A stretch of DNA of 64,000 bases from Actinomycetes bacterium (GTDB lineage: Bacteria > Actinomycetota > Acidimicrobiia > Acidimicrobiales > RAAP-2): positions 1 through 64,000 of the forward strand of contig JAKADK010000001.1 in the NCBI GenBank assembly GCA_021820665.1. Direction: 5' to 3'. The notes under the pieces are model-generated. The model did not search any database. It was not told the DNA's origin and saw nothing but the letters and a program-made list of their open reading frames with translations. Positions 10,690 through 27,479 of this stretch are shown piece by piece (the first letter of the stretch is position 1; each line of letters begins with the position of its first letter). Made by a program: the position numbers and the translations under genes.

Positions 10690-12419
10690 TCCGCCTCCTC
10701 GCCCGCCTTCCCCGTCCGAGCACCCGGCCGCCCTCGGCGTTCGGTCCCGACCGCGTCGAGGTTCGCCCCCGGGCGCTGCGGGTCGCAGACGGCTGGTGCG
10801 CCAGCCTCGCCGTCGTCGGCTACCCGAGAGAGGTCGGCGTCGGGTGGCTCGAACCGCTCTGCGCCCACCCCGGACGCCTCGACGTCGCCGTCCACGTCGA
10901 GCCGATCCCGGCCAACCAGGCCGCCGATCGGCTGCGCCGCCAGCTGGCCCGCATGGAATCAGGCCGGCGCGCCGATGCGGCCAAGGGGCGCCTGGTCGAC
11001 CCCGACGTCGAGGTCGCGGCTGAAGACGCCCGTGCACTTGCCGCCGGCCTCGCCCGCGGTGAGCAGCGGCTGTTCCGGGTCGGCCTCTACCTCACCGTCC
11101 ACGCCCGCAGCGAGAAGGCATTGGAGGCCGAGTGCGCCCGCGTCAAGGCGCTGTGCGCCTCGATGCTGCTCGACGCCCAGCCCGCCACCTGGCGCATGCT
11201 GCAAGCCTGGTCGGCCACCCTCCCCGTCGCGCTCGACACCCTCGGCCAGCGCCGCGCCTTCGACACCGACGCCCTCGCCGCGTCGTTCCCGTTCGCCTCC
11301 GCCGAGCTGTCGACGTTTGGCGGGGTCCTCTACGGGGCGGTCACCGGCGGGGCGGGGCTGGTGTGCTGGGACCGCTTCGCCCAGGACAACCACAACTCGG
11401 TCATCCTGGCGCGCTCGGGGGCGGGCAAGTCCTACCTGGCCAAGCTCGAAGCGCTCCGCTCGCTCTACGCCGGGATCGAGGTGGCCGTCGTCGACCCCGA
11501 AGACGAGTACCGCCGCCTGGCCGAGACCGTCGGCGGCGCCTACGTGCATCTGGGCGCCCCCGGGGTGCGGGTCAACCCCTTCGACCTCCAAGCCGGCCCC
11601 GATGCGTTGACTCGACGGGCACTGTTCGTCCACACGCTCGTCGCCGTGCTGCTCGGCGGGAAGCTCGACCCCGCCTCCACGGCCGCCTTGGACCGGGGCA
11701 TCGTCGCCGCCTACGAGTCGGTCGGGATCACCTCCGACCCGCGCAGCCACGCCCGGCCCGCACCGCTGCTGGCCGACCTGGCCGCGGCACTCGACGCCGA
11801 CGGCGACCCCGCGGCGCGAACACTATCGGCCCGCCTGGCCCCGTTCACCACCGGCACCCACCGGGGCCTGTTCGACGGGCCGACCACCACCCGCCCCGAG
11901 GGCCACCTGGTCGTCTTCAGCCTGCGGGATTTGCCAGGTGAGCTGAAGGCAGCGGGGACGCTGCTCACCCTCGACGCCGTGTGGCGGCGGGTGTCGGATC
12001 CCGCCGACCGCCGGCGTCGGCTGGTCACCGTCGACGAGGCGTGGCTGCTCATGTCCGACCCGGCCGGGGCGGAGTTCCTCTTCCGCATGGCCAAGTCGGC
12101 CCGCAAGCACTGGGCCGGCTTGACCGTCGTCACCCAGGACGCTGCCGACCTGCTCGGCTCGCCGCTCGGCCAGGCGGTGGTCGCCAACGCGGCCACCCAG
12201 ATCCTGCTGCGCCAAGCCCCCCAGACCATCGACACCCTCAGTGACGCCTTCGCCCTCTCGGCTGGCGAGCGGGCCTACCTGCTCGGTGCCGGCCGCGGCC
12301 AGGGACTCCTCGCCGCCGGCACCGAGCGCGTCGCCTTCACCGTTCTTTCCTCCGAAATCGAGGACCGTCTGGCTCGGACCGGGATCGAGCAGGCCCTCGA
12401 TGCCACCCCCGACCTCTGA
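10686..12419 (+). CDS. VirB4-type T4SS ATPase
   Basis: A 577-residue secretion ATPase that would power pilus assembly and substrate transfer at the inner membrane. Walker A is LARSGAGKSYLAK (about 241-252), Walker B is RLVTVDEAWLLM (about 443-453), and a Q-containing sensor motif follows (LTVVTQDAADLLGS). The N-terminal third is the VirB4/CagE domain without membrane helices. It starts with GTG overlapping the PrgI stop. A 44-nt gap separates it from the coupling protein. Confidence 0.9.
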   Translation: MIRLLARLPRPSTRPPSAFGPDRVEVRPRALRVADGWCASLAVVGYPREVGVGWLEPLCAHPGRLDVAVHVEPIPANQAADRLRRQLARMESGRRADAAKGRLVDPDVEVAAEDARALAAGLARGEQRLFRVGLYLTVHARSEKALEAECARVKALCASMLLDAQPATWRMLQAWSATLPVALDTLGQRRAFDTDALAASFPFASAELSTFGGVLYGAVTGGAGLVCWDRFAQDNHNSVILARSGAGKSYLAKLEALRSLYAGIEVAVVDPEDEYRRLAETVGGAYVHLGAPGVRVNPFDLQAGPDALTRRALFVHTLVAVLLGGKLDPASTAALDRGIVAAYESVGITSDPRSHARPAPLLADLAAALDADGDPAARTLSARLAPFTTGTHRGLFDGPTTTRPEGHLVVFSLRDLPGELKAAGTLLTLDAVWRRVSDPADRRRRLVTVDEAWLLMSDPAGAEFLFRMAKSARKHWAGLTVVTQDAADLLGSPLGQAVVANAATQILLRQAPQTIDTLSDAFALSAGERAYLLGAGRGQGLLAAGTERVAFTVLSSEIEDRLARTGIEQALDATPDL

Positions 12420-12463
12420 CCCACCGCCTCAGTAATCCCGTCTCGAGTGAAGGAATCCCCGTC

Positions 12464-15178
12464 ATGCCCACACCCCAGCCGATCCCCCCGCCGTCGGTGC
12501 CGTCGGGGCCGCTCGCCCACTACCTGGCCCATCCCGGCGCCACCACCTCCCATCTGCTCCACCAGCTCGGCCACGCGCTCTTTCACCTGGCCGTCGCGCT
12601 CGGCCCTCCCGTCGCCGGGATCGCCCTCGCCGGGTTCGTCGCGCTCGGCGTGGCCCGTCGGGCCCAGGCCCGGCGCATGACCGAAGGCGCCCGCCTCGTC
12701 GTGGTGCGCACCCCGCCCGAGGTCGACCCCCAGGGCGCCGTCACGTTGTGGACGAACCTGGTGGCCCTGCTCCGTCCCGCCTGGCGGCGGCTCCTCGGCG
12801 GCCAGCCCCACCTCGGCTTCGAGCTCACCGCCACCGACGGCGGGCTCACCATCGCGCTCTGGGTGCCCGGAGCGGTCCCGCCCGGACTGGTCGAGCGGGC
12901 CGTCGAGGCCGCCTGGCCCGGGGCGCGCACCGAGACCGTCCCCGCCGTCGCGCCGCTCGTAGGCCGCGGGGGGGCGACGGGCGGCGAGCTGCGCCTGGCG
13001 GTCGCCGAGCACTACCCGCTCAAGAGCGAGCACAAGGTCGACCCGCTCCGCCCCCTCCTCGGGGCGCTCTCCGGCCTCGGTGAGGGCGAGTCGGCGTGCG
13101 TGCAGCTCCTGGCTCGGCCGGTCACCGGCCGCCGTCTCGCCCGGCTGCAGCGGGCCGCCGCGGCCCGCCGTTCGGGGCGGCCGGCCAGCCGCCTCGGCCG
13201 GCTGATCGACCTGTTCACCCCCGGCCCCACCACCCAAGCCGCGGCCACCGACCCCACCCGCTCGGCGGACGTGGCCGACATCTTGGACAAGGCCGCCCAG
13301 CCCTGCTGGGCCATCACCATCCGCTACGCCGTCGCCATCGTCGGCGCCCAAGCCCCGGATCGCCAGGCCGCGGCCCGGCTGCGGGGCCGGGCCCATGCCG
13401 TGGCGTCCGCCTTCGCCCTCTACTCGGCCCGCAACCGCCTGGAGCGCCACCGCCTCCGCCACCCCGCCCGGGTCCTCGCCGCCCGCCGTCTCGGCCGGGG
13501 CGACCTGGTCTCGGTGGCCGAGCTCGCCGCCCTGGCTCATCTGCCCACCGACGCCGCCGTCCCGGGTCTCGACCGGGCCGGGGCGAACGCCGTGCCGCCA
13601 CCGCCCGCCGTCGCCCGCCCCGCCTCGGCCAACGCAAGCCGCCCCGCCTCCGGGACTGGTCCCGACGCGGGGGCTGGTGGCGCGGGTCCCACCTCGGGGA
13701 CTGGCGGGGCTCTCGGGACCCCCAAGGTGCTCGGCGACGCCCAGGCCGGCGGCCGGCGGCCGGTCGCGCTCTCGATGCCCGACGCCCGCTACCACCTCCA
13801 CGTCATGGGGGCCACCGGGTCGGGCAAGTCGACGCTGCTCACCAACCTCGCCCTCGGCGACGTCGACGCCGGGCGGGGGGTGGTGGTGATCGACCCCAAA
13901 GGGGATCTGATCACCGACCTGTGCGACCGGCTCCCCGAGACCGCGGCGGCCCGCACCGTGCTGATCGACCCCGAGGACCCCGACGCCGCCCCGGTATTGA
14001 ACGTGCTCGCCGGTCCCGATCCGGACCTGGTCGTCGACAACCTGGTCGGCATCTTCCGGTCCATCTTCGCCGCCTTCTGGGGGCCTCGGACCGACGACGT
14101 GCTGCGCGCCGCCTGCCTCACCCTGCTCCGCCACTCGGCGGCCACCGGCACCCAGACCAGCCTGGCCGACGTCCCCCGCCTGCTCGCAGAGGACGACTTC
14201 CGCGCCCCGAGGGTGGCGGTCGTGGCCGACGACAAGGTCGGCCTCGGCGGGTTCTGGGACGCGTATGAGGCCATGAGCGAGGCGAACAGGGCCCAGGTCA
14301 TCGGGCCGCTCATGAACAAGCTGCGGGCCTTTCTCCTCCGAGACTTCGTCCGGCGCATCGTCGGCCGGCCCGACGGCAGCTTCGACATGGGCCAGGTCCT
14401 CGACGGCGGCATCTGCCTGGTCCGGGTCCCCAAGGGCATCCTCGGCGAGGAGACCGCCAAGCTGCTCGGCAGCTTCGTGGTCGCCAAGGTGTGGCAGACC
14501 GCGACGCATCGGGCCCGGCTCGGCCAGGCCGCCCGGGTCGACGCCTCCCTCGTCGTGGACGAGTGCCAGAACTTCTTGAACCTGCCCCGCAGCTTTGACG
14601 AGATGCTGGCCGAGGCCCGCGGCTACCGGCTCTCGATGGTCCTCGCCCACCAGCACCTCGGCCAGCTCCCCCGGGAGCTGCGCGAGGCGGTGTCGGCCAA
14701 CGCCCGCACCAAGGTGTGGTTCTCCATGTCCCCCGAGGACGCGCATGCGCTCTCCCGCCACGTCGCCCCGGAGGTGTCCGAGCACGACCTCGCCCATCTC
14801 GGCGCCTACACCGCGGCGGTCCGCATGGTCGTCGACGGCGAGGAGACCCCCGCCTTCACGCTGCGCACCCGACCGGCCCCGCCCGCCATCCCCGGCCGGG
14901 CCGACACGGTGCGCGCCGCCAACCGGGCCGCCCACCGCCCGCCTAAGCCCACGCCGCCGGCCTCGCCGCTCGCCGGCCGGACCCTGCCCGCCGCCTCGGG
15001 CGGCGCACAGCGCCGAGGTCCCGGGCCGGGCGGCGCCGTCCATGAGGGGCTCCGTCAAGACGTCCACGGAGCACTCCACGGAGCCCTCCCCCAAGAAACG
15101 GAGCCCTCGAACAGCCGCCAACCGCCACGTCAGCGCCGAGCGGAGGGCTCCGGCGCGCCGGGCGACTCAAGGGGGTAG
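12464..15178 (+). CDS. T4SS coupling protein (TraG/VirD4-like) with N-terminal extension
   Basis: A 904-residue DNA-translocating ATPase expected to dock the transferred DNA to the channel. One membrane helix is at about 40-62. A large N-terminal domain precedes the motor. Walker A is MGATGSGKSTLL (about 447-458) with the following VVVIDPKGDLITDL. Walker B is SLVVDECQNFL (about 694-704), and a late TraM-recognition-like segment reads MVLAHQHLGQLPRELREAV. The C-terminal 100 residues are Pro/Arg-rich and disordered. AAGGAA lies upstream of the ATG. It is longer than typical VirD4 because of the about 430-residue front domain, as in actinobacterial relatives. Confidence 0.9.
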   Translation: MPTPQPIPPPSVPSGPLAHYLAHPGATTSHLLHQLGHALFHLAVALGPPVAGIALAGFVALGVARRAQARRMTEGARLVVVRTPPEVDPQGAVTLWTNLVALLRPAWRRLLGGQPHLGFELTATDGGLTIALWVPGAVPPGLVERAVEAAWPGARTETVPAVAPLVGRGGATGGELRLAVAEHYPLKSEHKVDPLRPLLGALSGLGEGESACVQLLARPVTGRRLARLQRAAAARRSGRPASRLGRLIDLFTPGPTTQAAATDPTRSADVADILDKAAQPCWAITIRYAVAIVGAQAPDRQAAARLRGRAHAVASAFALYSARNRLERHRLRHPARVLAARRLGRGDLVSVAELAALAHLPTDAAVPGLDRAGANAVPPPPAVARPASANASRPASGTGPDAGAGGAGPTSGTGGALGTPKVLGDAQAGGRRPVALSMPDARYHLHVMGATGSGKSTLLTNLALGDVDAGRGVVVIDPKGDLITDLCDRLPETAAARTVLIDPEDPDAAPVLNVLAGPDPDLVVDNLVGIFRSIFAAFWGPRTDDVLRAACLTLLRHSAATGTQTSLADVPRLLAEDDFRAPRVAVVADDKVGLGGFWDAYEAMSEANRAQVIGPLMNKLRAFLLRDFVRRIVGRPDGSFDMGQVLDGGICLVRVPKGILGEETAKLLGSFVVAKVWQTATHRARLGQAARVDASLVVDECQNFLNLPRSFDEMLAEARGYRLSMVLAHQHLGQLPRELREAVSANARTKVWFSMSPEDAHALSRHVAPEVSEHDLAHLGAYTAAVRMVVDGEETPAFTLRTRPAPPAIPGRADTVRAANRAAHRPPKPTPPASPLAGRTLPAASGGAQRRGPGPGGAVHEGLRQDVHGALHGALPQETEPSNSRQPPRQRRAEGSGAPGDSRG

Positions 15179-15181
15179 GGA

Positions 15182-16207
15182 ATGGAAGCTTCGACGTCGA
15201 TACCGTCCGGCCAACGGCCGGTCCGCTCCGCTGCCGGCACGGCCGGCACCGGCAACGACGGTCCAGCTGACACCGTGCCGCTCGGGCCGGCGGACAGGAA
15301 CCGAGCGCCGGTAGGCGCATCCGCATCATCACCAGGCAAGGGTGCAGCGCCGGCAGGCACCGATCGGAGCGGTCTCCGTCGCGCCCGGCGTGACGCCGAG
15401 GTCCGCCTCCTCGCCGTGGCCGGTCGCCTGACCGAACGGGACCGGCTCATCTGCCGCCTCCTCGACGAGCACCGCGTGCTCACCACCGCCCAGGTCGCCG
15501 ACGTCGGCTTCACCGGGGAACGCCGAGCAAGGATGCGCCTCGCCGAGCTGCACGCCCTCGACCTGCTCGACCGGTTCCGGCCGCAGGTCTGGGGCAACCC
15601 CGCCCCGTTCCACTGGACCCTCGGCCCGCTCGGTGCCGCCCTCGTCGCCGCCGAGGCCGGCATCGAGCCCTCCGCCCTGTCCTGGCGGCGCACCCTCGCC
15701 CACGAGCTCGCCCAAAGCCAACGCCTCGCCCACCTCGTCGGGGTCAACGGCTTCTTCTGCGCCCTGTTGCGCTCCGCCCGCACCCGGCCCGGCTGCTGGC
15801 TGGAGGAGTGGTGGTCCGAACGGCGCTGCGCCCGCGAATGGGGCGAGGTCGTCCGCCCCGACGGCTACGGCGTCTGGACCGAGGCCGACACCAGCCTCCC
15901 GTTCCTCCTCGAGTACGACAACGGCACCGAAACCCTCGCCCGGCTCGCCGGAAAGCTCGACGGCTACCGCCGCCTCGCCCAAGCGGCCGGACACCCCAAC
16001 TGGGTCCTGTTCAGCTTCTCCACCCCCCGGCGCGAGCACGACGCCGCCCGGGTCCTCGCCGGTCACGGCGTCCCCGTCGCCACCGCCGCCCGCACGCCGG
16101 GCACCGCCCCCGACACCGCGATGTGGGCCCCGCTCGCGCCGAGCGCCCCCGGCGGCGGTCTGCTCCGCCTCGCCGCGCTCGCCCAGCTCCCCCTCGAGGC
16201 GGCGTGA
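15182..16207 (+). CDS. Replication-relaxation family protein
   Basis: A 341-residue protein. The conserved part begins with a winged helix (RLTERDRLICRLLDEHRVLT then TAQVADVGFTGERRARMRLA, about 80-120). It continues through HWTLGPLGAALVA and a nuclease-like segment (PDGYGVWTEADTSLPFLLEY, DNGTETLARLAGKLDGYRRL). This is the pattern of the replication-relaxation family found on actinobacterial plasmids and conjugative elements; its biochemistry is not settled. As no other relaxase-like gene is visible, it is the nearest candidate for a DNA-processing role. It starts 3 nt after the coupling protein stop with AGGGGGTAGGGA upstream. Confidence 0.75.
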   Translation: MEASTSIPSGQRPVRSAAGTAGTGNDGPADTVPLGPADRNRAPVGASASSPGKGAAPAGTDRSGLRRARRDAEVRLLAVAGRLTERDRLICRLLDEHRVLTTAQVADVGFTGERRARMRLAELHALDLLDRFRPQVWGNPAPFHWTLGPLGAALVAAEAGIEPSALSWRRTLAHELAQSQRLAHLVGVNGFFCALLRSARTRPGCWLEEWWSERRCAREWGEVVRPDGYGVWTEADTSLPFLLEYDNGTETLARLAGKLDGYRRLAQAAGHPNWVLFSFSTPRREHDAARVLAGHGVPVATAARTPGTAPDTAMWAPLAPSAPGGGLLRLAALAQLPLEAA

Positions 16208-17178
16208 CCCTCGGCCTCGACGCCGGCCCCGCCAGCCTCGGGACCAAGCTCGCCGCCGCAGCCGGCGGACTCGCCCTCGCCGTCGTTGTCCTCGCGGCGG
16301 GGGCGGGCGCGGGCATCGCCTCCCTCCTCGGCGGCGGCAGCCCACCGTCTGCCACCGCCACCGCGCAGGTCCCCCCGGCCATGCTCGCCCTCTACCAGCA
16401 GGCCGCGGCGGTCTGCCCGGGACTGCCCTGGACGGTGCTCGCCGCCATCGGCACCGTCGAGTCCGACAACGGTCAGTCCACCCTGCCAGGAGTGAGGTCA
16501 GGGGCGAACCCCGCCGGCGCCGAAGGTGACATGCAGGAGCTGCCGGCGACCTTTGCCGCATACGCCTTTCCGGTCCCCCCCGGCGGCGCCAACCCGCCCA
16601 GCCCCTATGACCCGACCGACGCCGTCTACGCCGCCGCCCGGATGCTCTGCGCCAACGGAGCAGCCAACGGCGCCGACCTCCAAGCCGCTGTGCTCAGCTA
16701 CAACCATGCCTCGTGGTACGTCGCAGAGGTTCTCGCCCTCGCCCGCTCCTACGGCCAGACCCAGGCCCAGATCGTCGCCGCGGGCAGCGCCGGGGGCGTC
16801 GCCGCCGACTGGGCCCTCGCCCAGGTCGGCACGCCCTATGTCTGGGGCGGTGAGACCCCCGGGGTGGGCTTCGACTGCTCGGGGCTCGTCCAAGCCGCCT
16901 ACAAGGTCGCAGGCATCACCCTGCCGCGCACCGCCCAGGCGCAGTACGACGCGACCACCAAGCTCGCGCCAGGTGATCCCCTTGCGCCCGGCGACCTCGT
17001 CTTCTTCGGCCAGAGCACCACCGCCATCGAGCACGTGGGCCTGGTGGTCAGCCCCACGACCATGGTCGACGCCCCCCACACCGGCGCCGAGGTGCGCGTC
17101 GAGCCCTTCCCTGCGGCCCTCGGTGCCTACTGGGGGGCCGAGCAGGTGGTGGGCTTCACCCAGCCGGCGACGCCCTGA
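16204..17178 (+). CDS. Bifunctional lytic transglycosylase / NlpC-P60 peptidase (VirB1-like)
   Basis: A 324-residue cell-wall hydrolase for opening peptidoglycan around the channel. It has an N-terminal membrane anchor (LAAAAGGLALAVVVLAAGAG, about 14-35). A lysozyme-like domain has Glu in LAAIGTVESDNG (about 84) and PAGAEGDMQELPATFAAYAF. A C-terminal NlpC/P60 domain has catalytic Cys in FDCSGLVQ (about 225), His in IEHVGLVV (about 278) and the YVWGG motif. The GTG at 16204 overlaps the preceding stop (GTGA). It is the last gene of the tightly packed secretion operon. Confidence 0.88.
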   Translation: MTLGLDAGPASLGTKLAAAAGGLALAVVVLAAGAGAGIASLLGGGSPPSATATAQVPPAMLALYQQAAAVCPGLPWTVLAAIGTVESDNGQSTLPGVRSGANPAGAEGDMQELPATFAAYAFPVPPGGANPPSPYDPTDAVYAAARMLCANGAANGADLQAAVLSYNHASWYVAEVLALARSYGQTQAQIVAAGSAGGVAADWALAQVGTPYVWGGETPGVGFDCSGLVQAAYKVAGITLPRTAQAQYDATTKLAPGDPLAPGDLVFFGQSTTAIEHVGLVVSPTTMVDAPHTGAEVRVEPFPAALGAYWGAEQVVGFTQPATP

Positions 17179-17710: not shown

Positions 17711-18262
17711 CTACCGTGCGGTGAGGACGGCGGCGACGGCACCGGCGACCATGAACGGCGCCATCGGCACCGTGGCCCGATCGGGACCGGGCGCGGCGAG
17801 GCGTCGGGCGAGAACGAAGAGCGTGGCGGCCGCGAACCCGAGGAGCGTGGCGTCGGCGACCGCAGCCCAACCGAGGAAGCCGAGCGCGAGGCCGACCACG
17901 CCCGCCCATTTTGCGTCTCCCATGCCCATTCCCCCGGGGAACGCCAGGCCAAGAAGGACGTAGAAGCCGGCGAGGGCGACCATCGCGACGGCGGCCCGGG
18001 CCAGCGACCACGGGTCCCCCAACACCGCGGCGGCCACGCCGAGCAGCGACAAGGCGCCGACGGCGGCGGGGCCGACGACCCGGTTTCGGATCCGCCGCTC
18101 GACGAGGTCTGTCACGGTCACGGTAGCGGCGCACACGCCGAACAGCAGGTAGGCGGGCAGCGCCGGGGACCAACCAAATCCCAGGGCCATCGCCACGTCG
18201 ATCCCGACCGCCAGGACTGCGGTGGCAAGGACGAGACGAGGCGAGGCGACGATCGCGCTCAT
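17711..18262 (-). CDS. Prepilin peptidase, A24 family (TadV-like)
   Basis: A 183-residue membrane aspartic protease with about five hydrophobic helices. The two catalytic aspartates are in VTVTDLVERRIRNRV (about residue 38) and in the GxGD-type motif GMGMGDAKWAG (about 98). It lacks the N-terminal methyltransferase domain of PilD, as TadV-type enzymes do, and would process the Flp and TadE-type pseudopilins encoded upstream. The ATG at 18262 overlaps the stop of the LysM-BTAD gene (ATGA), so it ends the minus-strand Tad operon. Confidence 0.85.
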   Translation of the reverse strand: MSAIVASPRLVLATAVLAVGIDVAMALGFGWSPALPAYLLFGVCAATVTVTDLVERRIRNRVVGPAAVGALSLLGVAAAVLGDPWSLARAAVAMVALAGFYVLLGLAFPGGMGMGDAKWAGVVGLALGFLGWAAVADATLLGFAAATLFVLARRLAAPGPDRATVPMAPFMVAGAVAAVLTAR

Positions 18263-21081
18263 CTCGTAAGGCGAGCCGGTCGGGGGCCGCCGGAGCGTTC
18301 GTCGGAGGCGGTGAGGCTGCGGTAGAGGCGGATGGTGGCGGGGTCCATCTCGACGTCGAGGTCGGCGAGGCGACGCCCGAGGCACTGCCACAGAGCGGCG
18401 AGCGTCTCGAGATGGCCGTGGGCGGCGTGGAGGGCCATGAGCCGGCGGTAGGGCTCCTCGGCGTAGCGGTCGAGCTCGATCGCCCGCTCCAAGACCGCGA
18501 CCGCCGCGTCGGGGTGCCCGGCCTGTTCTTCGAGCTCGGCCAGGCGCAGGTGGGCGTCGAGCGCCCGGCGGTGCAGGTCGGCTCGGACCGGCTCGACCCA
18601 GGGGTAGTCGGCCCCCTGGAGCAGGTCGCCGCGGAACGCCTCGACGGCGCGGCGCAGCGCGGTCCGGGCACTCCCGGCTTCGTCGGCCCGGGCCGCCTCG
18701 GCGAGGGTGGCCTGGAAGTCCCACAGGTCACAGCGGATCTCGGTGGGGCTCGGCCGGTAGTGCTCGCCCACCTTCTCCAGGACCTCGAGCGCCGCCTCGC
18801 CGTGGTCCCGGAAGAACGAGCGCAGGTCGCCCAACGGATGCCAGAACACCTTGAGGACCCGGCCGGGGGGCGTGTCGGGCCACAGGGCGTCGACGGCCTC
18901 GTCGATCGTGACGCCCTCGGGGCGCAGCAGGCACCACGCCAGGAGCATCTTGGCCCGGGCCCGCAGCCCGGGAGGGACCGGCCGGCCGAACAGGCTGATC
19001 CGATAGGGGCCGAGGACCTCGACGACCACCGGCCGCTCTCGACCCAACGGCGGCGCCGGCTCGGGCCACCGCTCGTCGGCTACCTCCTCGGCCAGCCCAT
19101 CCGCGGCGGCGTGGTGAGGAGGGTCGCCGTCCTGCTCCGCTCGGCCGCTGCCGTCGGGCGCCTCGACCCCTGGCGGTTCGGCGTCGGCGCCCTCGCCGTC
19201 GTCCTCGGCTGCAGACAGCGCGCCGAGCAGCTCGACCGCCTCGTCGGCGCGCAGCCCGTGCAGCTGGGCACCGCTGAGCCGCTCGGCGAGGGCGGCCGGC
19301 TCGGCGTCGGCGACGGTCCGGCCCGCACCGAGGCGCAGCCGGCCCGTCGCGGCCGGGGTGTCGTCGAGGAACAGCACGCAGATGCCGAGCCGCCCGGCGT
19401 CGCCGAGGAGGCCCGACCACCGCCCGAGCGACTCGGCGGGAAGGTCGCAGACGACCACGAGGAGCAGCGGCAGGGGGTTCTCGGGGTTGTCGTGGCGGAA
19501 GCTTGCGGCGTCCTTGGCCCCCGCGGCCTCGAGGCGCCGGGTCCGGGCGATGCGCTCGACCTCGACCACCCTGGCCGCCTGGTCGGGGCCAAGGCACCGG
19601 ATGGCGGCTGCGGCGGGGAGGCCGGGCACCAGGCGCTCGGCCGCAGCCAAGGAGAGGACGACCTCGGCGGCGCCGCGGCCGGCTCGGACCAACAGGCCGG
19701 CGAGGAGTGCCCGGACCACCTCGTCGGCGCCGGGGCCGTGCACGGCCACGCCCGAGAGCTCGGCCACCTCGACGTCGACGGCTGTGGCGTGGCGCACCCC
19801 AACCTCGAGGAGCCCCGGGTCGAGCCGCCGCTCGTCGTCGGCCACCGGGAACACCGCCAGCACCTCGGCGGCGTCGTCGCCCGGGGCGGTGCCATCCGAT
19901 GCCCGGACGAGGTGCGCCAGGGTTGGGCGAGCCGGCTCGACGCGAAGGTCGCGGCCCGGGGCCGGTGGCCGGTAGCGGTAGGCGTGACGGCGGCGCAGCC
20001 GGCCGAGAGCCACCGTCGCAGCCACCCCGGCGGCGAACGAGCCAGCCACGACCGACCCCGACGGCAACCGGACCGGCGCCGGGGGCGCTGGCGTCCGGGG
20101 CGTCCCAGAGCCGTTGGTCCCAGCTGACGGCGCGCCCGGTGCGCTCCGGGCCGGCGCGGTTCGTGGCCCTAGCGGTGCGGTCGCCGACGGTCCCGGCGAC
20201 GTCGCAGGCGACGGCGGGCCGGCGCTGCCCGGGAGGCGGCCAGGTGACGACGGGTCTGTCGTCGGGGGAGGGGTCGTCGGCACCGCCGGTGCCGGTTTCG
20301 GCGGAGAAGAAGCAGGCGAGGGCAGAAAAAGGGTCCAGCCCGGGTCGATCCAGTGGGGGTTGTCGAGGCTGACCCCGTCGGGTTGGGGCCGGCCCGCGTT
20401 CAGCTGGTAGATCTCCGACCAGCGCAGCGGGTCGCCGAGCACTCGCTCGGCGATGCCCCACAAGGTGTCGCCGCGTTGGACGACGTAGGGGGTGAGCGTC
20501 ACCGCCGCCGGGCCGCCCGTCGAAGGGATCGGCGGGGTCATTGTCGGGTTGGACGACGTCGCTGTCCGGCTGGGCAACGTCGCGGCGACGGTCGCAACCG
20601 GCCGGCTGGCGGCGTCGGTGACGACGAGGGCGGCCACAGGACGCCCGGCGACCACCGCGCCGAGCGCGCTCCGGCTGCTTGCCGTGCCCGGCTGCACCGG
20701 ACGCGGCGCGAGCGCGAGGCCGGCGACGACGACGGCAGCCACCAGGCGGCCCGTCAGGGGCTGGAAGATCCCGGCGACCGGCAAGCGCCGGGCACGTCGT
20801 CCACACAGCGCGCCGAGGACTTCGGCGGCGATGGAGGCGACGAGGCTCGCCCAGCAGATCCACACCACCACGGCCAGCGCGTCGATAAGGGCCTGGGCAG
20901 GGATGCCCTGGCGCTCAAGGGCCCGGCCGACCTGGGCCGCCGTGGGGACGTGGTGGGGCAACGGCCAGCCGATGAAGTGCCACAGCGCCCAGGGGATGCC
21001 ACCAACGAGCACCGCCAGCGCGCACAGGGCGGCAAGGCCCCTGGCGACACGAAACACCCTGTACGGACCACTTTCGGTCAC
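18259..21081 (-). CDS. Membrane-anchored LysM and BTAD (SARP-type) protein
   Basis: A 940-residue protein. Two or three membrane helices lie in the first 125 residues. A LysM repeat (YVVQRGDTLWGIAERVLGDP, about 208-265) is followed by a Pro/Thr-rich linker and another hydrophobic helix near 350. A long Ala-rich middle has no assigned domain. An OmpR-like winged helix (VEVLGPYRISLFGRPVPPGL, from about 695) and a bacterial transcriptional activation domain with TPR-like helices end the protein. The union of peptidoglycan binding, membrane anchor and a transcription-factor-like end suggests a sensor or scaffold at the cell envelope. Such proteins are commonly seen next to actinobacterial Tad genes. 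Start and stop overlap neighbours by 4 nt. Confidence 0.75.
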   Translation of the reverse strand: MTESGPYRVFRVARGLAALCALAVLVGGIPWALWHFIGWPLPHHVPTAAQVGRALERQGIPAQALIDALAVVVWICWASLVASIAAEVLGALCGRRARRLPVAGIFQPLTGRLVAAVVVAGLALAPRPVQPGTASSRSALGAVVAGRPVAALVVTDAASRPVATVAATLPSRTATSSNPTMTPPIPSTGGPAAVTLTPYVVQRGDTLWGIAERVLGDPLRWSEIYQLNAGRPQPDGVSLDNPHWIDPGWTLFLPSPASSPPKPAPAVPTTPPPTTDPSSPGRLPGSAGPPSPATSPGPSATAPLGPRTAPARSAPGAPSAGTNGSGTPRTPAPPAPVRLPSGSVVAGSFAAGVAATVALGRLRRRHAYRYRPPAPGRDLRVEPARPTLAHLVRASDGTAPGDDAAEVLAVFPVADDERRLDPGLLEVGVRHATAVDVEVAELSGVAVHGPGADEVVRALLAGLLVRAGRGAAEVVLSLAAAERLVPGLPAAAAIRCLGPDQAARVVEVERIARTRRLEAAGAKDAASFRHDNPENPLPLLLVVVCDLPAESLGRWSGLLGDAGRLGICVLFLDDTPAATGRLRLGAGRTVADAEPAALAERLSGAQLHGLRADEAVELLGALSAAEDDGEGADAEPPGVEAPDGSGRAEQDGDPPHHAAADGLAEEVADERWPEPAPPLGRERPVVVEVLGPYRISLFGRPVPPGLRARAKMLLAWCLLRPEGVTIDEAVDALWPDTPPGRVLKVFWHPLGDLRSFFRDHGEAALEVLEKVGEHYRPSPTEIRCDLWDFQATLAEAARADEAGSARTALRRAVEAFRGDLLQGADYPWVEPVRADLHRRALDAHLRLAELEEQAGHPDAAVAVLERAIELDRYAEEPYRRLMALHAAHGHLETLAALWQCLGRRLADLDVEMDPATIRLYRSLTASDERSGGPRPARLTR

Positions 21082-22915: not shown

Positions 22916-23119
22916 TCAGGGGCCGGTGGTGATCGAGTTGGCCTTGGCGATGACCTTGGCCACGATTATCCCGACCGCGGTCAACGCCAGCGCGGCGAGC
23001 AGCGCGGTGACGATCACGGCTTCGGTCGAGTAGCCGGCGTCGGGTTCTGCTCGCAGCGCTTGCCAACGCGCCGCGAGGGTGTTGAAGAGGTGGCGGAGGA
23101 GGATCAGCTCGGGGAGCAC
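22916..23119 (-). CDS. Small Flp-type pilin candidate
   Basis: A 67-residue protein with a 30-residue hydrophilic leader ending AEPDAGYSTEAV. A single hydrophobic helix follows (IVTALLAALALTAVGIIVAK), then the tail VIAKANSITTGP. Length, leader and helix match the Flp major pilin and similar small actinobacterial proteins near Tad genes. The GTG at 23119 has AAAGGA upstream. It lies immediately beside the left end of the recombinase cassette, which separates it from tadC. Confidence 0.65.
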   Translation of the reverse strand: MLPELILLRHLFNTLAARWQALRAEPDAGYSTEAVIVTALLAALALTAVGIIVAKVIAKANSITTGP

Positions 23120-23219
23120 GGCGCGTGTCCTTTCTCGTGTTGGGTCATGTCATGGGCCTTCCTTTCTCTGGCTGACGAGGGTGTCGGAATTCATGAACCC
23201 CATCGCTTCTGTTGGAACA

Positions 23220-23233
23220 CCCTTCGGTTCGTC
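23220..23233 (+). repeat. Left direct repeat of the recombinase cassette
   Basis: CCCTTCGGTTCGTC, identical to 26525-26538. Candidate recombination core or target duplication. Confidence 0.6.
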
Positions 23234-23385
23234 TGCCGCGATTTCGCGACGACTCTCCGTTCGGCCTGGTGGTCAGCGACTTCGGGGCGTGTCCACGGCC
23301 CCTGCGTTTCTGACGGTTGGTCACGCTGGCTGAAGCTTTTGTGATAGGCATGACCGATGGTTGATCTGAGCGAACCGACGTTCTC

Positions 23386-24474
23386 GTGACGCTCGCCGCG
23401 GTCCGTTCGATCGACTCCGGCCGGCGAGGGCGTTCGGAGGCGGAGCTCGACGACTTCGAGCAGGAGCTGGTCGACCAGTACGCGCTTGCCGGTGCCGGGT
23501 CGGGCATGACCGACGGCTCGATCGCAAGTGAACGCTTCGCGATCGTGGCGTTTGCCCGGTTCATGGGCCAGCGCATCTGGACGGCAACGGCCGACGACGC
23601 GGACCGGTTCTTGACCCATCAGCGCAAGACGCTCGGACTCGCGAGAAGCACCGTGAAGGGCCACGCCGGGGCGATCGGTCGCTTCTTCGACTTCCTCATC
23701 GTCCGCTATCAAGGCGACATCCTCGCCATCGACGGCCACGTCGTCGTCCAGCCGATCGACGAGTTCAACCGCCCGAGACGCGTGCACCTCACCGGCGTCG
23801 AGCGCATCCCGCCCCGCGATGAGGAGGTGGACGCCTTCTTCGAGGTGTGGGCTGCGTGGTTGCCCTCTGCCCGCAAGTACCTCCCAGCGGCGCGGGACTA
23901 CATGGCAGCGTCGTTGTGGCGGCGGGCAGGGCTGCGCATAAGCGAGACCGTCATGCTCGACATCCGCGACTGGCGGCCGGACCTCGGCGAACACGGCAAG
24001 CTCCACATCCGTTTCGGCAAGGGGAGCATGGGTCGTGGGCCGAAGGTCCGTCTCGTGCCGGCGATCAATTCCGTCGACTCGTTGATGGAGTGGTGGTTCA
24101 CCGACGTGCGCCATCAGTTCGGCGACGACTACCGCGATCCCGACGCGCCATTGCTGCCGAGTGAGCGGCGCAACCGGCAGACCGATGCCTGCTTTCGTGT
24201 CGGCCACGACGCGCTGCGCTCCGGGCTGGCTATCGCGGTCGGCACGTGGCTGCCCGATTGGAACGGCCGTCTCAGCCCGCACGTGCTTCGGCACTACTGC
24301 GCGTCGTCGCTCTACATGCAAGGCATGAGCCTGAAGGCCATCCAAGACCTCTTGGGCCACGAGTGGCTGTCCACCACGACGAGCTACATCCACGTGCACG
24401 ACACGCACATCGAAGATGCGTGGGCGAAGGCCAACGACCGGGTCGCCGAACGGCTGACCGACGAGGCGAGGTGA
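23386..24474 (+). CDS. Tyrosine recombinase (XerC/D-like integrase)
   Basis: A 362-residue recombinase with a SAM-like core-binding domain (about 20-115, with FARFMGQRIWTATADDADRF) and a catalytic domain. Visible active-site residues are Arg in RRAGLRISE (about 185), Lys in FGKGSMGRGPK (about 210), the HxxR pair in LSPHVLRHYCAS (about 298/301), His in LLGHEWLST (about 325) and the nucleophile Tyr in TTTSYIHVHDTH (about 333). The set is complete, so the enzyme should be active. The GTG start has no clear ribosome site, and an internal start is possible. It is the first gene of the three-gene cassette. Confidence 0.88.
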   Translation: MTLAAVRSIDSGRRGRSEAELDDFEQELVDQYALAGAGSGMTDGSIASERFAIVAFARFMGQRIWTATADDADRFLTHQRKTLGLARSTVKGHAGAIGRFFDFLIVRYQGDILAIDGHVVVQPIDEFNRPRRVHLTGVERIPPRDEEVDAFFEVWAAWLPSARKYLPAARDYMAASLWRRAGLRISETVMLDIRDWRPDLGEHGKLHIRFGKGSMGRGPKVRLVPAINSVDSLMEWWFTDVRHQFGDDYRDPDAPLLPSERRNRQTDACFRVGHDALRSGLAIAVGTWLPDWNGRLSPHVLRHYCASSLYMQGMSLKAIQDLLGHEWLSTTTSYIHVHDTHIEDAWAKANDRVAERLTDEAR

Positions 24475-24478
24475 CGAG

Positions 24479-24796
24479 ATGAGATGGAACCTGCGGATGG
24501 CCGCTGCCGAGCGAGGCATCTGGAAGAGCTCCGAGCTGCGACGCAAGTTCGCGGATGCCGGCCTTGAGATCAGCGCCGGGAAGATGTCGACGCTCTGGAC
24601 CCAGACGCCCAACAGCCTCCGACTCGAAGAACTCGACGTCATCTGTACGGTCCTCGACTGCACCCCCTTGGACCTGCTCATCCCCGAGCCGGACAAGGTC
24701 GCAGCGCGACGACCGAAGAAGGCCGAGTCGTCGTCGCCGGGAGTCGCGCAGATCACGCCCCGTCTCGGGCGCAATCGGACCAAGCCGCCCGCGTGA
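24479..24796 (+). CDS. Small Cro/CI-type helix-turn-helix protein
   Basis: A 105-residue protein. Residues 5-70 (MAAAERGIWKSSELRRKFAD, ISAGKMSTLWTQTPNSLRLE, ELDVICTVLDCTPLDLLIPE) follow the five-helix XRE/Cro fold with the terminal CTPLDLL signature. The C-terminal third is basic and disordered. The ATG is preceded by GAGGTGACGAG, 4 nt after the recombinase stop. It probably regulates the cassette or helps assemble the recombination complex. Confidence 0.8.
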   Translation: MRWNLRMAAAERGIWKSSELRRKFADAGLEISAGKMSTLWTQTPNSLRLEELDVICTVLDCTPLDLLIPEPDKVAARRPKKAESSSPGVAQITPRLGRNRTKPPA

Positions 24797-26487
24797 CCCG
24801 CGTCCGGCTCTGTGCCGGCTGCGGCGTCAACCCCATTGCCTACATCGGTCGCGAGTACTGCTACGGGTGCGTACCTCGCGTCTGGAAGCGACCGGCCAGG
24901 TGCAAGCGCTGCGGCTCGGAGAAGGACTACTTCACGAACGGGCTCTGCCGCCGCTGCCACCGCCAAGGACCGCTGCGCACGAGTTGCGTCGACTGCTTCG
25001 CGTGGCCGGTGACGCGCCACCACAAGTGGCTCTGTGAGGCATGCCGAGCTTGGCACGTGCGCTTCGGCGAGTCGACCGCCGAGTGCGGGTGCTGCCGGCG
25101 ATCCCTCGTCCTCCACCGCGAGGGCTACTGCCGGCTCTGTTGGCTGCAGGCTCGCGACGTCCGCCTTCCCCACCAGAAGCGCGACGTGCTCGGCGCGAAC
25201 CGCAATGGACAACAGCTGTGGTTTGCCGACATGTTCCGTCAACGGCGTTGGGCATCGTCTGCGACCGTCACCTCGACCGTCGAGGCCGCGTGGCCCGTCG
25301 GCTTCCCGCTCAGGCACCGCCAGCTCGTCCTGTTCGAGACCCCACGGGTCCTCGACCCAGCTCGTTCCTATGACGTGGCGTCGTCGCCCGTGCCCGAGCT
25401 CGCGAGAGCCCTCGATTCCATCGTCGACGAGCACGGTGAGGCGCACGGCTGGAAGAGGCACATGCGCGTCATGGCCTACCGCGCGATCCACGCGATGCTC
25501 GCCGTCCAGGACACGCCGGGGGCGCCGATCCGGGCGAGCGAGCTCGCCGTTCTCTCCCAGTTGCCGAACACCACGATCCAGCCCGTCCTCGAAGTGCTCC
25601 TCGCCGCAGGGATGCTCGAAGACGACCGGCCGGCGCCGCTCGAGGTCTGGTTCGAGCGCCGCGTCCTCGATCTCCCCGATTCGATGCGGACGGAGGTCCG
25701 AGAGTGGTTCCACGCGCTCCGCGACGGCAGCGAGGCCGCGCCGCGCACGCGGCCACGCAGCATCGGGACCGTGTATCGCCGGATCTTCACCGTCACCGCA
25801 GCGCTCGAAGCGTGGGGTGCGGCCGGCCACCAGTCGCTTCGCGAAATCACCCGCGAGGACATCGTCGACGCGCTCCCGAACGACCCCGACCAACGGCGAC
25901 GAACGCTCGAGAGCCTGCGCAGCCTCTTCCGCTTCTTGAAAGGGCGGCGACTCGTCTTCGCCAACCCCACCGCCCGGATGCGCTCGCCGCGGCCCCAGGA
26001 CAGCTACCCGATGCCCGTCGATCCAAAGATCCTGCGGGACGCCCTCAACAGTGCGGACCCGGCCAAAGCCGCGCTCGCCGGACTCGTCGTCTTCCACGCG
26101 CTGCGTAGCGGCGAACTGCGCGCCCTCCTGCTCAGTGACATCGTGGACGGCCGGCTCGCGCTCAACGGGCGGACGATCCTGCTCGCGGCACCCGTGCGCG
26201 AACTGCTTGCAGCCTGGCTCGACGAACGCGCCCGTCGCTTTCCGGACACGATCAACGCGCACCTGTTCGTCAGCCAATACACCGCAGTTCGCCTCGGGCC
26301 GGTGAGCGGTTCGTGGATCAGCACGACCCACGCGCTCCCCGTCCAAGCGATCCGTGAGGACCGCATCCTCCACGAGGCGCTCATCGGGGGTGACGTCCGA
26401 TTGCTCGGCGATCTGTTCGGCCTCAGCGTCGGCGGCGCGGAGCGTTACACGCGCATCTTCGAAAACGACAAACGATTCAGTTCGTGA
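24793..26487 (+). CDS. Zinc-ribbon protein with degenerate tyrosine-recombinase domain
   Basis: A 564-residue protein. The first 120 residues hold about eight CxxC-type knuckles (CAGCG, CYGC, CKRCG, CRRCH, CVDC, CEAC, CGCC, CRLCW), i.e. four zinc ribbons. A central helical domain (about 180-330) is followed by a recombinase-like C-terminal half with a core-binding segment (ITREDIVDALPNDPDQRRRT) and an Arg box (FHALRSGELRALLLSDI). The usual catalytic Lys strand and the HxLRH box are not recognisable; THALPVQAIRED stands where the latter should be. The LGH motif reads LFGLSVGGAERY but keeps a possible Tyr. It probably binds cassette ends as an inactive partner. GTG start in a GTGA overlap. Confidence 0.65.
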   Translation: MTRVRLCAGCGVNPIAYIGREYCYGCVPRVWKRPARCKRCGSEKDYFTNGLCRRCHRQGPLRTSCVDCFAWPVTRHHKWLCEACRAWHVRFGESTAECGCCRRSLVLHREGYCRLCWLQARDVRLPHQKRDVLGANRNGQQLWFADMFRQRRWASSATVTSTVEAAWPVGFPLRHRQLVLFETPRVLDPARSYDVASSPVPELARALDSIVDEHGEAHGWKRHMRVMAYRAIHAMLAVQDTPGAPIRASELAVLSQLPNTTIQPVLEVLLAAGMLEDDRPAPLEVWFERRVLDLPDSMRTEVREWFHALRDGSEAAPRTRPRSIGTVYRRIFTVTAALEAWGAAGHQSLREITREDIVDALPNDPDQRRRTLESLRSLFRFLKGRRLVFANPTARMRSPRPQDSYPMPVDPKILRDALNSADPAKAALAGLVVFHALRSGELRALLLSDIVDGRLALNGRTILLAAPVRELLAAWLDERARRFPDTINAHLFVSQYTAVRLGPVSGSWISTTHALPVQAIREDRILHEALIGGDVRLLGDLFGLSVGGAERYTRIFENDKRFSS

Positions 26488-26524
26488 ACCCAAGTGGTGA
26501 GTTACCATGTTTTCCATAGACGAC

Positions 26525-26538
26525 CCCTTCGGTTCGTC
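26525..26538 (+). repeat. Right direct repeat of the recombinase cassette
   Basis: CCCTTCGGTTCGTC, identical to 23220-23233, 38 bp after the zinc-ribbon gene stop and 39 bp before the tadC stop. Confidence 0.6.
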
Positions 26539-26576
26539 GCTCTTGGGGCTTCGGAAGCCGGGAACTGAAGCACTAC

Positions 26577-27479
26577 TCACAGGCCATGGAGCACCCGTTC
26601 GACGGCGGGGAACCCCAAGAAGAACAAGAACCCGGCGAAGAGGAGGACGACGGGGAGGCTCATGCGCTCGGTGGCCGCCTGGTCGGCGGTCTCGGCCTCG
26701 GCGAGGGCGTGGGTGCGAAGCGAGGTGGCCTTGGCGGCCAGGCTGGCGCGGACCTTGGCGCCCTCGGTGCCCGCCAGGGCGACGCTGGCGGCGAGCTCGG
26801 ACAGCTCGGTCACGCCGAGCTCGGTGCCGAGGCGTCCGAGGGCGGCCCAGGGGGTCTCACGGGCGAGGCGGGCCTGGTCGAGCGCCCGGCGCAGCGCGGC
26901 GAACGCCCACCCCTCGCCGACGCCGGCCGCGTCGGCGAGCGCGGTCTCGACGCCGCCGCCGGCCAGGGCGATGACGACCAAGTCGAGGAAGGAGCTGAGC
27001 GCGTGGCGGAAGTCCCGGCGCCTGCGGGTGGCCTCGGCGTGGACGCCGAGGTCGGGGACGAAGAACCCGGCGACCATCAACACGAGCGCCCCCCACACCG
27101 GCACCGCCACCGGAAGGCCGCCGCCGCCGAGAGCGAGCAGCGCCGCGACGACCGGGGCGAAGAGGAGGCCGACGAGGCCGAGCGCGATCTTCTCGGCCAG
27201 GTGGCGCTCGGGTTGGCGTCCCAAGACGGCGAGGTCCCGGCGCAGCGCGGTGGGCACCAGCCAGCCGGCCCCGGCTCGGGTGAGGGCACCGGCGGCTGGT
27301 CGCCCGAGGCGTGCCGCGAACCCGCCCGGGTCGTCCTCGCCGAGGACGGCGGTGGGTTGAGGCAGGCGGCGGAGCTGGGCGAGGGCGGCGGCCAGTGAGG
27401 GGCGCGGAGGGAACAGGCCGCGCACGACCAACCACAGGCCGCCACCGGCGCCCGCGCCCTCCAGCAGCGCCGCGATCAC
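26577..27479 (-). CDS. tadC: TadC-like type II/IV pilus inner-membrane protein
   Basis: A 300-residue T2SSF-domain protein. Hydrophobic helices are at about 95-150 (IALGLVGLLFAPVVAALLAL; VWGALVLMVAGFFVPDLG), and a last helix ends the protein (LPVVLLFAGFLFFLGFPAVE). The cytoplasmic F domain lies between (FLDLVVIALAGGGVETALAD, GTEGAKVRASLAAKATSLR, AETADQAATERM). It forms the pilus platform with TadB. The GTG at 27479 overlaps the tadB stop. Its 3' side is now cut off from the pilin gene by the recombinase cassette. Confidence 0.88.
   Translation of the reverse strand: MIAALLEGAGAGGGLWLVVRGLFPPRPSLAAALAQLRRLPQPTAVLGEDDPGGFAARLGRPAAGALTRAGAGWLVPTALRRDLAVLGRQPERHLAEKIALGLVGLLFAPVVAALLALGGGGLPVAVPVWGALVLMVAGFFVPDLGVHAEATRRRRDFRHALSSFLDLVVIALAGGGVETALADAAGVGEGWAFAALRRALDQARLARETPWAALGRLGTELGVTELSELAASVALAGTEGAKVRASLAAKATSLRTHALAEAETADQAATERMSLPVVLLFAGFLFFLGFPAVERVLHGL

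Follow-up and report, generated by a model that had tools for sequence, protein, structure and literature searches.

A probable tyrosine recombinase-driven transposable element with a degenerate, cysteine-rich recombinase partner in an actinobacterial Tad pilus locus

The window analysed here, a stretch of 64,000 nt from an Actinomycetes bacterium, contains on its forward strand a 3367 bp mobile element (positions 23210–26576) that probably belongs to a widespread family of transposable elements, found mostly in Actinomycetota and driven by a tyrosine recombinase, Int, as its sole catalytic subunit with the product of a third gene (gene 3) as DNA-binding partner. Comparison of sequences shows exact ends, cargo that is optional and placed after gene 3 and before the right terminal motif R2, the absence of a target duplication and an antisense insertion in T4SS, Tad or SSB genes, which is often placed at the stop codon of the right-hand gene.

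The element consists of three closely packed forward-strand genes; int (23386–24474, 362 aa; Pfam PF00589, 2.5e-17), a gene for an XRE/Cro-type HTH protein (gene 2, 24479–24796, 105 aa; PF13443, 5.7e-15) and gene 3 (24793–26487, 564 aa), where an N-terminal zinc-knuckle array with 16 cysteines is combined with a degenerate tyrosine recombinase domain recognised by weak XerC models and a fold match. The gene coordinates and Pfam matches agree with the trio of tyrosine recombinase, XRE and zinc-ribbon protein, antisense to the Tad genes on either flank, that an earlier note had described. To the right the target gene encodes a T2SSF-like TadC (26577–27479, reverse strand), the stop codon of which (TGA, 26577–26579) forms the first host bases, and on the opposite side of the insertion there is a small Tad pilin-like gene (22916–23119, reverse strand) that adjoins TadC in trio-free relatives. 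The window element holds the trio alone, with no other gene and no cargo, and a search for ICE/IME features within 23210–26576 revealed no relaxase or conjugation gene of its own and no tRNA-type site. Beside the Tad operon, at 12464–17178, a VirD4/TraG-like coupling protein, another reading frame and an NlpC/P60-like peptidase were found; together they suggest that the window contig, which comes from a fragmented assembly, is part of a conjugative element.

As far as sequences can define them, the ends are known nearly to the base from four agreeing lines; a copy of the element in locus L055, contigs consisting of the element alone, duplicate copies within one isolate and end profiles. The identity to L055 begins at 23210, and the L055 contig ends at the equivalent of 26578. 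In the within-isolate copy pairs the shared sequence begins 17 nt before GTTC at the left (19 in Nocardia) and stops 11 nt after GAAC at the right. Among the element-only contigs two show exactly these 17 and 11 nt (L130 and L097) and two differ by at most one base (L074, 17/12; L118, 18/10). The left-end profile over 35 loci reads TGTCnnnAnTGCCGTGA-GTTCG, its information beginning at TGTC with about 0 bits on the host side, while in the right-end profile of 35 loci the information extends past GAACCCACGG with little in host DNA. Copy pairs, element-only contigs and profile thus give 23210–26576 for the window element, an extent also seen when aligning a trio-free site. Pairs of family elements repeatedly lose their match 168 nt before int.

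The 14-bp direct repeat of the earlier note, CCCTTCGGTTCGTC, was confirmed as exact copies at 23220–23233 and 26525–26538, with no third copy in the 64 kb, but the two do not bracket the element as had been proposed. The left copy is part of the left end, TGTTGGAACACCCTTCG-GTTCGTC (23210–23233), and corresponds to element positions 11–24, starting 10 bp inside the end, while the right copy ends 38 bp short of the true right end, which abuts the TadC stop codon. The 14-mer as boundary was ruled out by the copy pairs, the 35-locus end profiles and the element-only contigs. In most family members a subterminal motif R1 (consensus CCCTTgGGTTCC; in the window the right 14-mer, 26525–26538) is located near the right end and is followed at the true end by R2, which in the window is CTTCGGAAGCCGGGAAC (26549–26565; consensus CTTCAGAATTCGCGAAC), and by the final 11 nt of the element, TGAAGCACTAC (26566–26576), as defined by copy pairs in N. 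farcinica and Streptomyces and by L130 and L097. Two exactly identical 14-mers are peculiar to the window element; around the other trios no identical direct repeats were found, the copies being only similar. Trios of this kind speak against a role for the repeat and leave the mobility of the trio untouched. The weaker similarity further in that had also been reported is no more than expected of repeat searches in GC-rich DNA.

No target is duplicated at the insertion, and when searching for direct imperfect repeats of GInt type no repeat was found to flank 23210 and 26576, where just CTTC|T and CTAC|T can be compared. Imperfect terminal inverted repeats (left CCGTGAGTTC, right GAACTCACGG) appear in part of the family and are weak in the window. 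A GAAC-N8-GTTC core, considered at one point, was dropped once distances of 17 and 11 nt had emerged from the copy pairs. Directly against the left end of the window element, at 23182–23209 on the forward strand, there is an R2-like motif (TGTCGGAATTCATGAAC) with 11 nt, which has an equivalent at the corresponding position of L157, a trio-free site, and a counterpart in the left flank of L113; it is possibly a host half-site or a relic of an earlier insertion. As a general rule such a motif was rejected, being present in only 2 of 68 loci.

The L055 copy is 99.97% identical over 3369 bp (window 23210–26578) while its Tad flank shows only ~75% identity, and trio-free Tad sites, which the earlier note had proposed to look for in relatives, were found in G067 and L111. 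Both findings bear out its view of a self-contained element of an active recombinase, an XRE protein and a zinc-ribbon/degenerate recombinase placed in a Tad operon. In G067 the window flanks, with 23210–26576 removed, align straight through the junction and host DNA resumes at TCACAG, the TadC stop codon; the site holds no copy of the 14-mer, so that of the predicted empty sites with one 14-mer the sites themselves exist, without the repeat. The same Tad operon in L111 is trio-free at the position used in the window; a different trio separates its TadC and TadB, which in the window have no trio between them. On pNOCA01 a trio is likewise placed between TadB and TadC, and the position differs within the same operon type (window, L111 and L043). 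Two copies on two plasmids were found both in an N. farcinica isolate (99.85% identical) and in Streptomyces NBC_00984 (99.6% identical, a GNAT gene included). From these comparisons we infer that the trio and its ends move as a unit between sites.

Contig C171 of the window's own genome (locus A) is 100% identical to the L055 flank over 5.6 kb and lacks the element. Its trio-free Tad site (17800–19600; L150, L160) retains 10 nt of left-end sequence, which meet the right flank at ACA, and the first 145 bp rightward are identical to the right flank of the window with ~80% identity beyond. Because of the 10 nt it was rejected as a pristine empty site. They speak for a scar left by a deletion or for an effect of the assembly, and against clean excision; the whole pattern is due to recombination of one Tad locus with another, to such a scar or to misassembly. 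No solo ends or MITEs were found in the same genome; when further copies were sought, the L130 genome gave a single contig end bearing 80 nt of left-end sequence from L130, and the L097 genome none. A second, diverged trio is present in the window's genome (G000:C52, 7.6–10.8 kb; L006, 2693–5769), with an Int 44% identical; two DNA methylase-like genes flank it, and a VirB2-like pilin gene lies close by.

When bacterial and archaeal genome contigs were scanned with Int, 168 relatives were found and 80 were kept, and among plasmid records 120 match Int and 95 match gene 3. The hosts are mostly Actinomycetota; some loci come from binned metagenomes, where labels such as Chloroflexi, Acidobacteriota and Rhodospirillales may reflect contamination. 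Many loci carry cargo, often 0.6–6 kb, between gene 3 and R2, and rightward of gene 3 the families identified include MerR and ArsR-type regulators, a cation efflux protein, acetyltransferases and a HicB-like antitoxin. Given this placement, the end rules make it possible to mark off cargo genes in many actinobacterial plasmids, namely metal and redox regulators, toxin-antitoxin-like genes and acetyltransferases. Two small genes resembling the HicA/HicB toxin-antitoxin (HicB_lk_antitox) recur to the right of gene 3 in five loci (L056, L095, L103, L108 and L110). Gene 3 is labelled just "hypothetical protein" in the plasmid records examined, and text searches of the literature found no description or family name for the trio, absence from subscription papers, which were outside their scope, being unproven.

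Among the 66 loci whose flanks measure 1.2 kb or more on each side, 55 are situated in T4SS, Tad or SSB loci (32 beside T4SS genes, 16 Tad, 6 SSB and 1 both), and in 55/55 the trio is antisense to the homologues, counts that are inflated by plasmid relatedness since common descent may link many of the 55 insertions. The distinct target sites comprise at least the 3' ends of a T4SS ATPase, TadC and TadB, plus two positions within SSB. For the 25 loci with a callable right end and host frame, the stop of the target gene is located at the junction (-6 to +10) in nine and 63–78 nt inside the element in ten. The left host sequence is not conserved across the family (35-locus profile) and therefore offers no general definition of a host site.

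Alignments of the proteins revealed that Int is a XerC/D-like recombinase in which R184, K212, H299, R302, H325 and Y334, together with W, are kept in 89 of 89 aligned members; the XRE protein is present in 97 of 98 loci. Gene 3, mostly 550–600 aa across the family, contains its 16 conserved cysteines as CxxC pairs. Its similarity to XerC models is weak only, while a profile match to XerA (2.7e-7) was obtained and its AlphaFold model (pLDDT 87) gives matches to XerA, XerH, lambda Int, Cre and Tn1549 Int. In the profile alignment Gln518 (in most members) takes the place of the active-site His and Arg521 that of the second Arg, which rules out Glu522 as the lost catalytic Arg. The box-III His and Lys are lost and Arg I is found in only 37 of 84 members, while Arg521 (82/84), Tyr552 (80/84) and an RxDR...FG motif are conserved, so that with Arg521 and Tyr552 retained some activity is possible.

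In the mechanism that we propose, Int would be the cleaving enzyme and the only catalytic subunit, closing a circle in which the right end (R2-GAAC-N11) meets the left end (N17-GTTC); for the window element this would join 26576 to 23210 (...GGGAACTGAAGCACTAC|TGTTGGAACACCC...). The circle junction would then recombine with a host site, with the crossover near GAAC-N11|N17-GTTC. Gene 3, a recombinase fold with most of its active site lost, may bind the ends or the target in an architectural or a targeting role, and the XRE protein may set the direction or repress the operon. Insertion into conjugative and plasmid backbone genes would let the element be carried along by plasmids and ICEs. A more specific version, in which these small transposons home on conjugative backbone genes (T4SS ATPase, Tad, SSB and possibly oriT), antisense and often at stop codons, with the zinc-knuckle pseudo-recombinase picking the target, is put forward tentatively. 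If true, it would be tyrosine recombinase transposition with a dedicated targeting subunit, a logic comparable to the conjugation-directed insertion of Tn7; thanks to the targeting bias itself, the way in which conjugative hosts are found by a recombinase element can be tested directly.

Among the alternatives, copy-out/copy-in of SE type, by single-strand exchange and replication with the donor left in place and a short spacer swapped, would fit the imperfect terminal inverted repeats, the lack of a clean excision site among the sites examined, the two copies in one isolate and a non-catalytic partner of recombinase fold as in SE and GInt (PMC10214605). It is nevertheless somewhat doubtful, as the second catalytic recombinase is absent and the right-end 11 nt are identical in both copies of each pair, so that no exchange of a 6-bp spacer is visible. 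Cleavage by both Int and gene 3, the latter through Arg521 and Tyr552 in a rearranged active site with the two-recombinase logic of Tn554, is unlikely; the recombinase fold and the conserved residues speak for it, while the replaced His, the missing box-III residues and the scarce Arg I speak against it.

That the trio is instead a resident accessory module of T4SS and Tad operons, such as a regulator or phase switch passed on together with them, would explain why 55 of 66 flanked loci lie in such operons, all antisense, and why trios on Arthrobacter plasmids share one common position. This reading is very improbable and already contradicted by the L055 copy in its diverged flank, the copy pairs and the element-only contigs; the varied positions within one operon type, trio-free operons, SSB and other targets and the cargo stand against it as well. 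The 14-bp repeat as crossover core of an integrase element, or as its target, was suggested by exact copies close to both ends and is hardly tenable, the right copy being an internal motif, missing from the trio-free site in G067 and different in sequence in other elements.

To place the preferred reading, a transposable element with one cleaving recombinase, the trio was compared with the tyrosine recombinase transposons, usually listed as five kinds: ICE/IME, SE, GInt, RIT and Tn554 (PMC10214605). The SE, strand-biased circularizing integrative elements of Gammaproteobacteria with the order IntA-Tfp-IntB-Srap, encode two catalytic (RHRY) recombinases, Tfp without catalytic motif and Srap, and leave a 6-bp spacer footprint (PMC10214605). 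Like SE, the present elements have a compact operon at the left end, cargo rightward, imperfect terminal inverted repeats, a target preference and one recombinase-fold protein without catalytic motif (Tfp in SE), but they are set apart by gene composition, one catalytic recombinase with an XRE protein and a 16-Cys pseudo-recombinase, and by mainly actinobacterial hosts; the SE of pAQU1, sought among annotations, was not recognised. GInt islands contain ginABCD, three recombinase-type genes and GinD, with direct imperfect repeats, 2.5–70 kb cargo and an AT-rich 3' end (PMC5385486); a multi-gene recombinase operon with cargo, a GinC without catalytic motif and a small helical DNA-binding protein are shared features (PMC5385486), while the trio has just two recombinase-fold genes and XRE.

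In Tn554 and actinobacterial Tn554-like pairs both proteins have catalytic motifs and the long one is 611–828 aa, and RIT elements, mostly in proteobacterial hosts, encode three catalytic recombinases (PMC3414803). With the Tn554-like pairs the family shares a site-specific tyrosine recombinase transposon on actinobacterial plasmids with one short and one long protein, although gene 3 is shorter and has lost parts of its active site; compared with the Tn554-like pair of L166, gene 3 gave no significant match to the long protein and Int only a 48-residue motif match. Three adjacent genes are shared with RIT, without three catalytic recombinases, and three genes including a recombinase with the gamma-mobile-trio (GmtX/Y/Z, NCBIfam), where Int scored 14 bits against the GmtY model (cut-off 340) and genes 2 and 3 match no Gmt model. 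The distinction from Tn554 and RIT made in the earlier note thus stood, with one catalytic recombinase and a degenerate gene 3. The element is akin in kind to SE, GInt and Tn554 but has the gene composition of neither these nor RIT, which would add a sixth grouping to the five listed (PMC10214605).

Some of the flanks show further features. In N. farcinica (L163 and L164, right of 10174) both plasmids carry GTGAGCAAGATATCCCAAAACCCCGGGGTTTTGG directly beyond the element, and this conserved right flank could be an oriT; on pNF1, judged by eye, it precedes a small reading frame that is MobC-like. In L166, from 10663, the Streptomyces target motif GGGGTCCAGCCAAGGTGAGCCC recurs unoccupied ~300 bp away, and beyond this second motif the Tn554-like recombinase pair is situated at 11722–15053.
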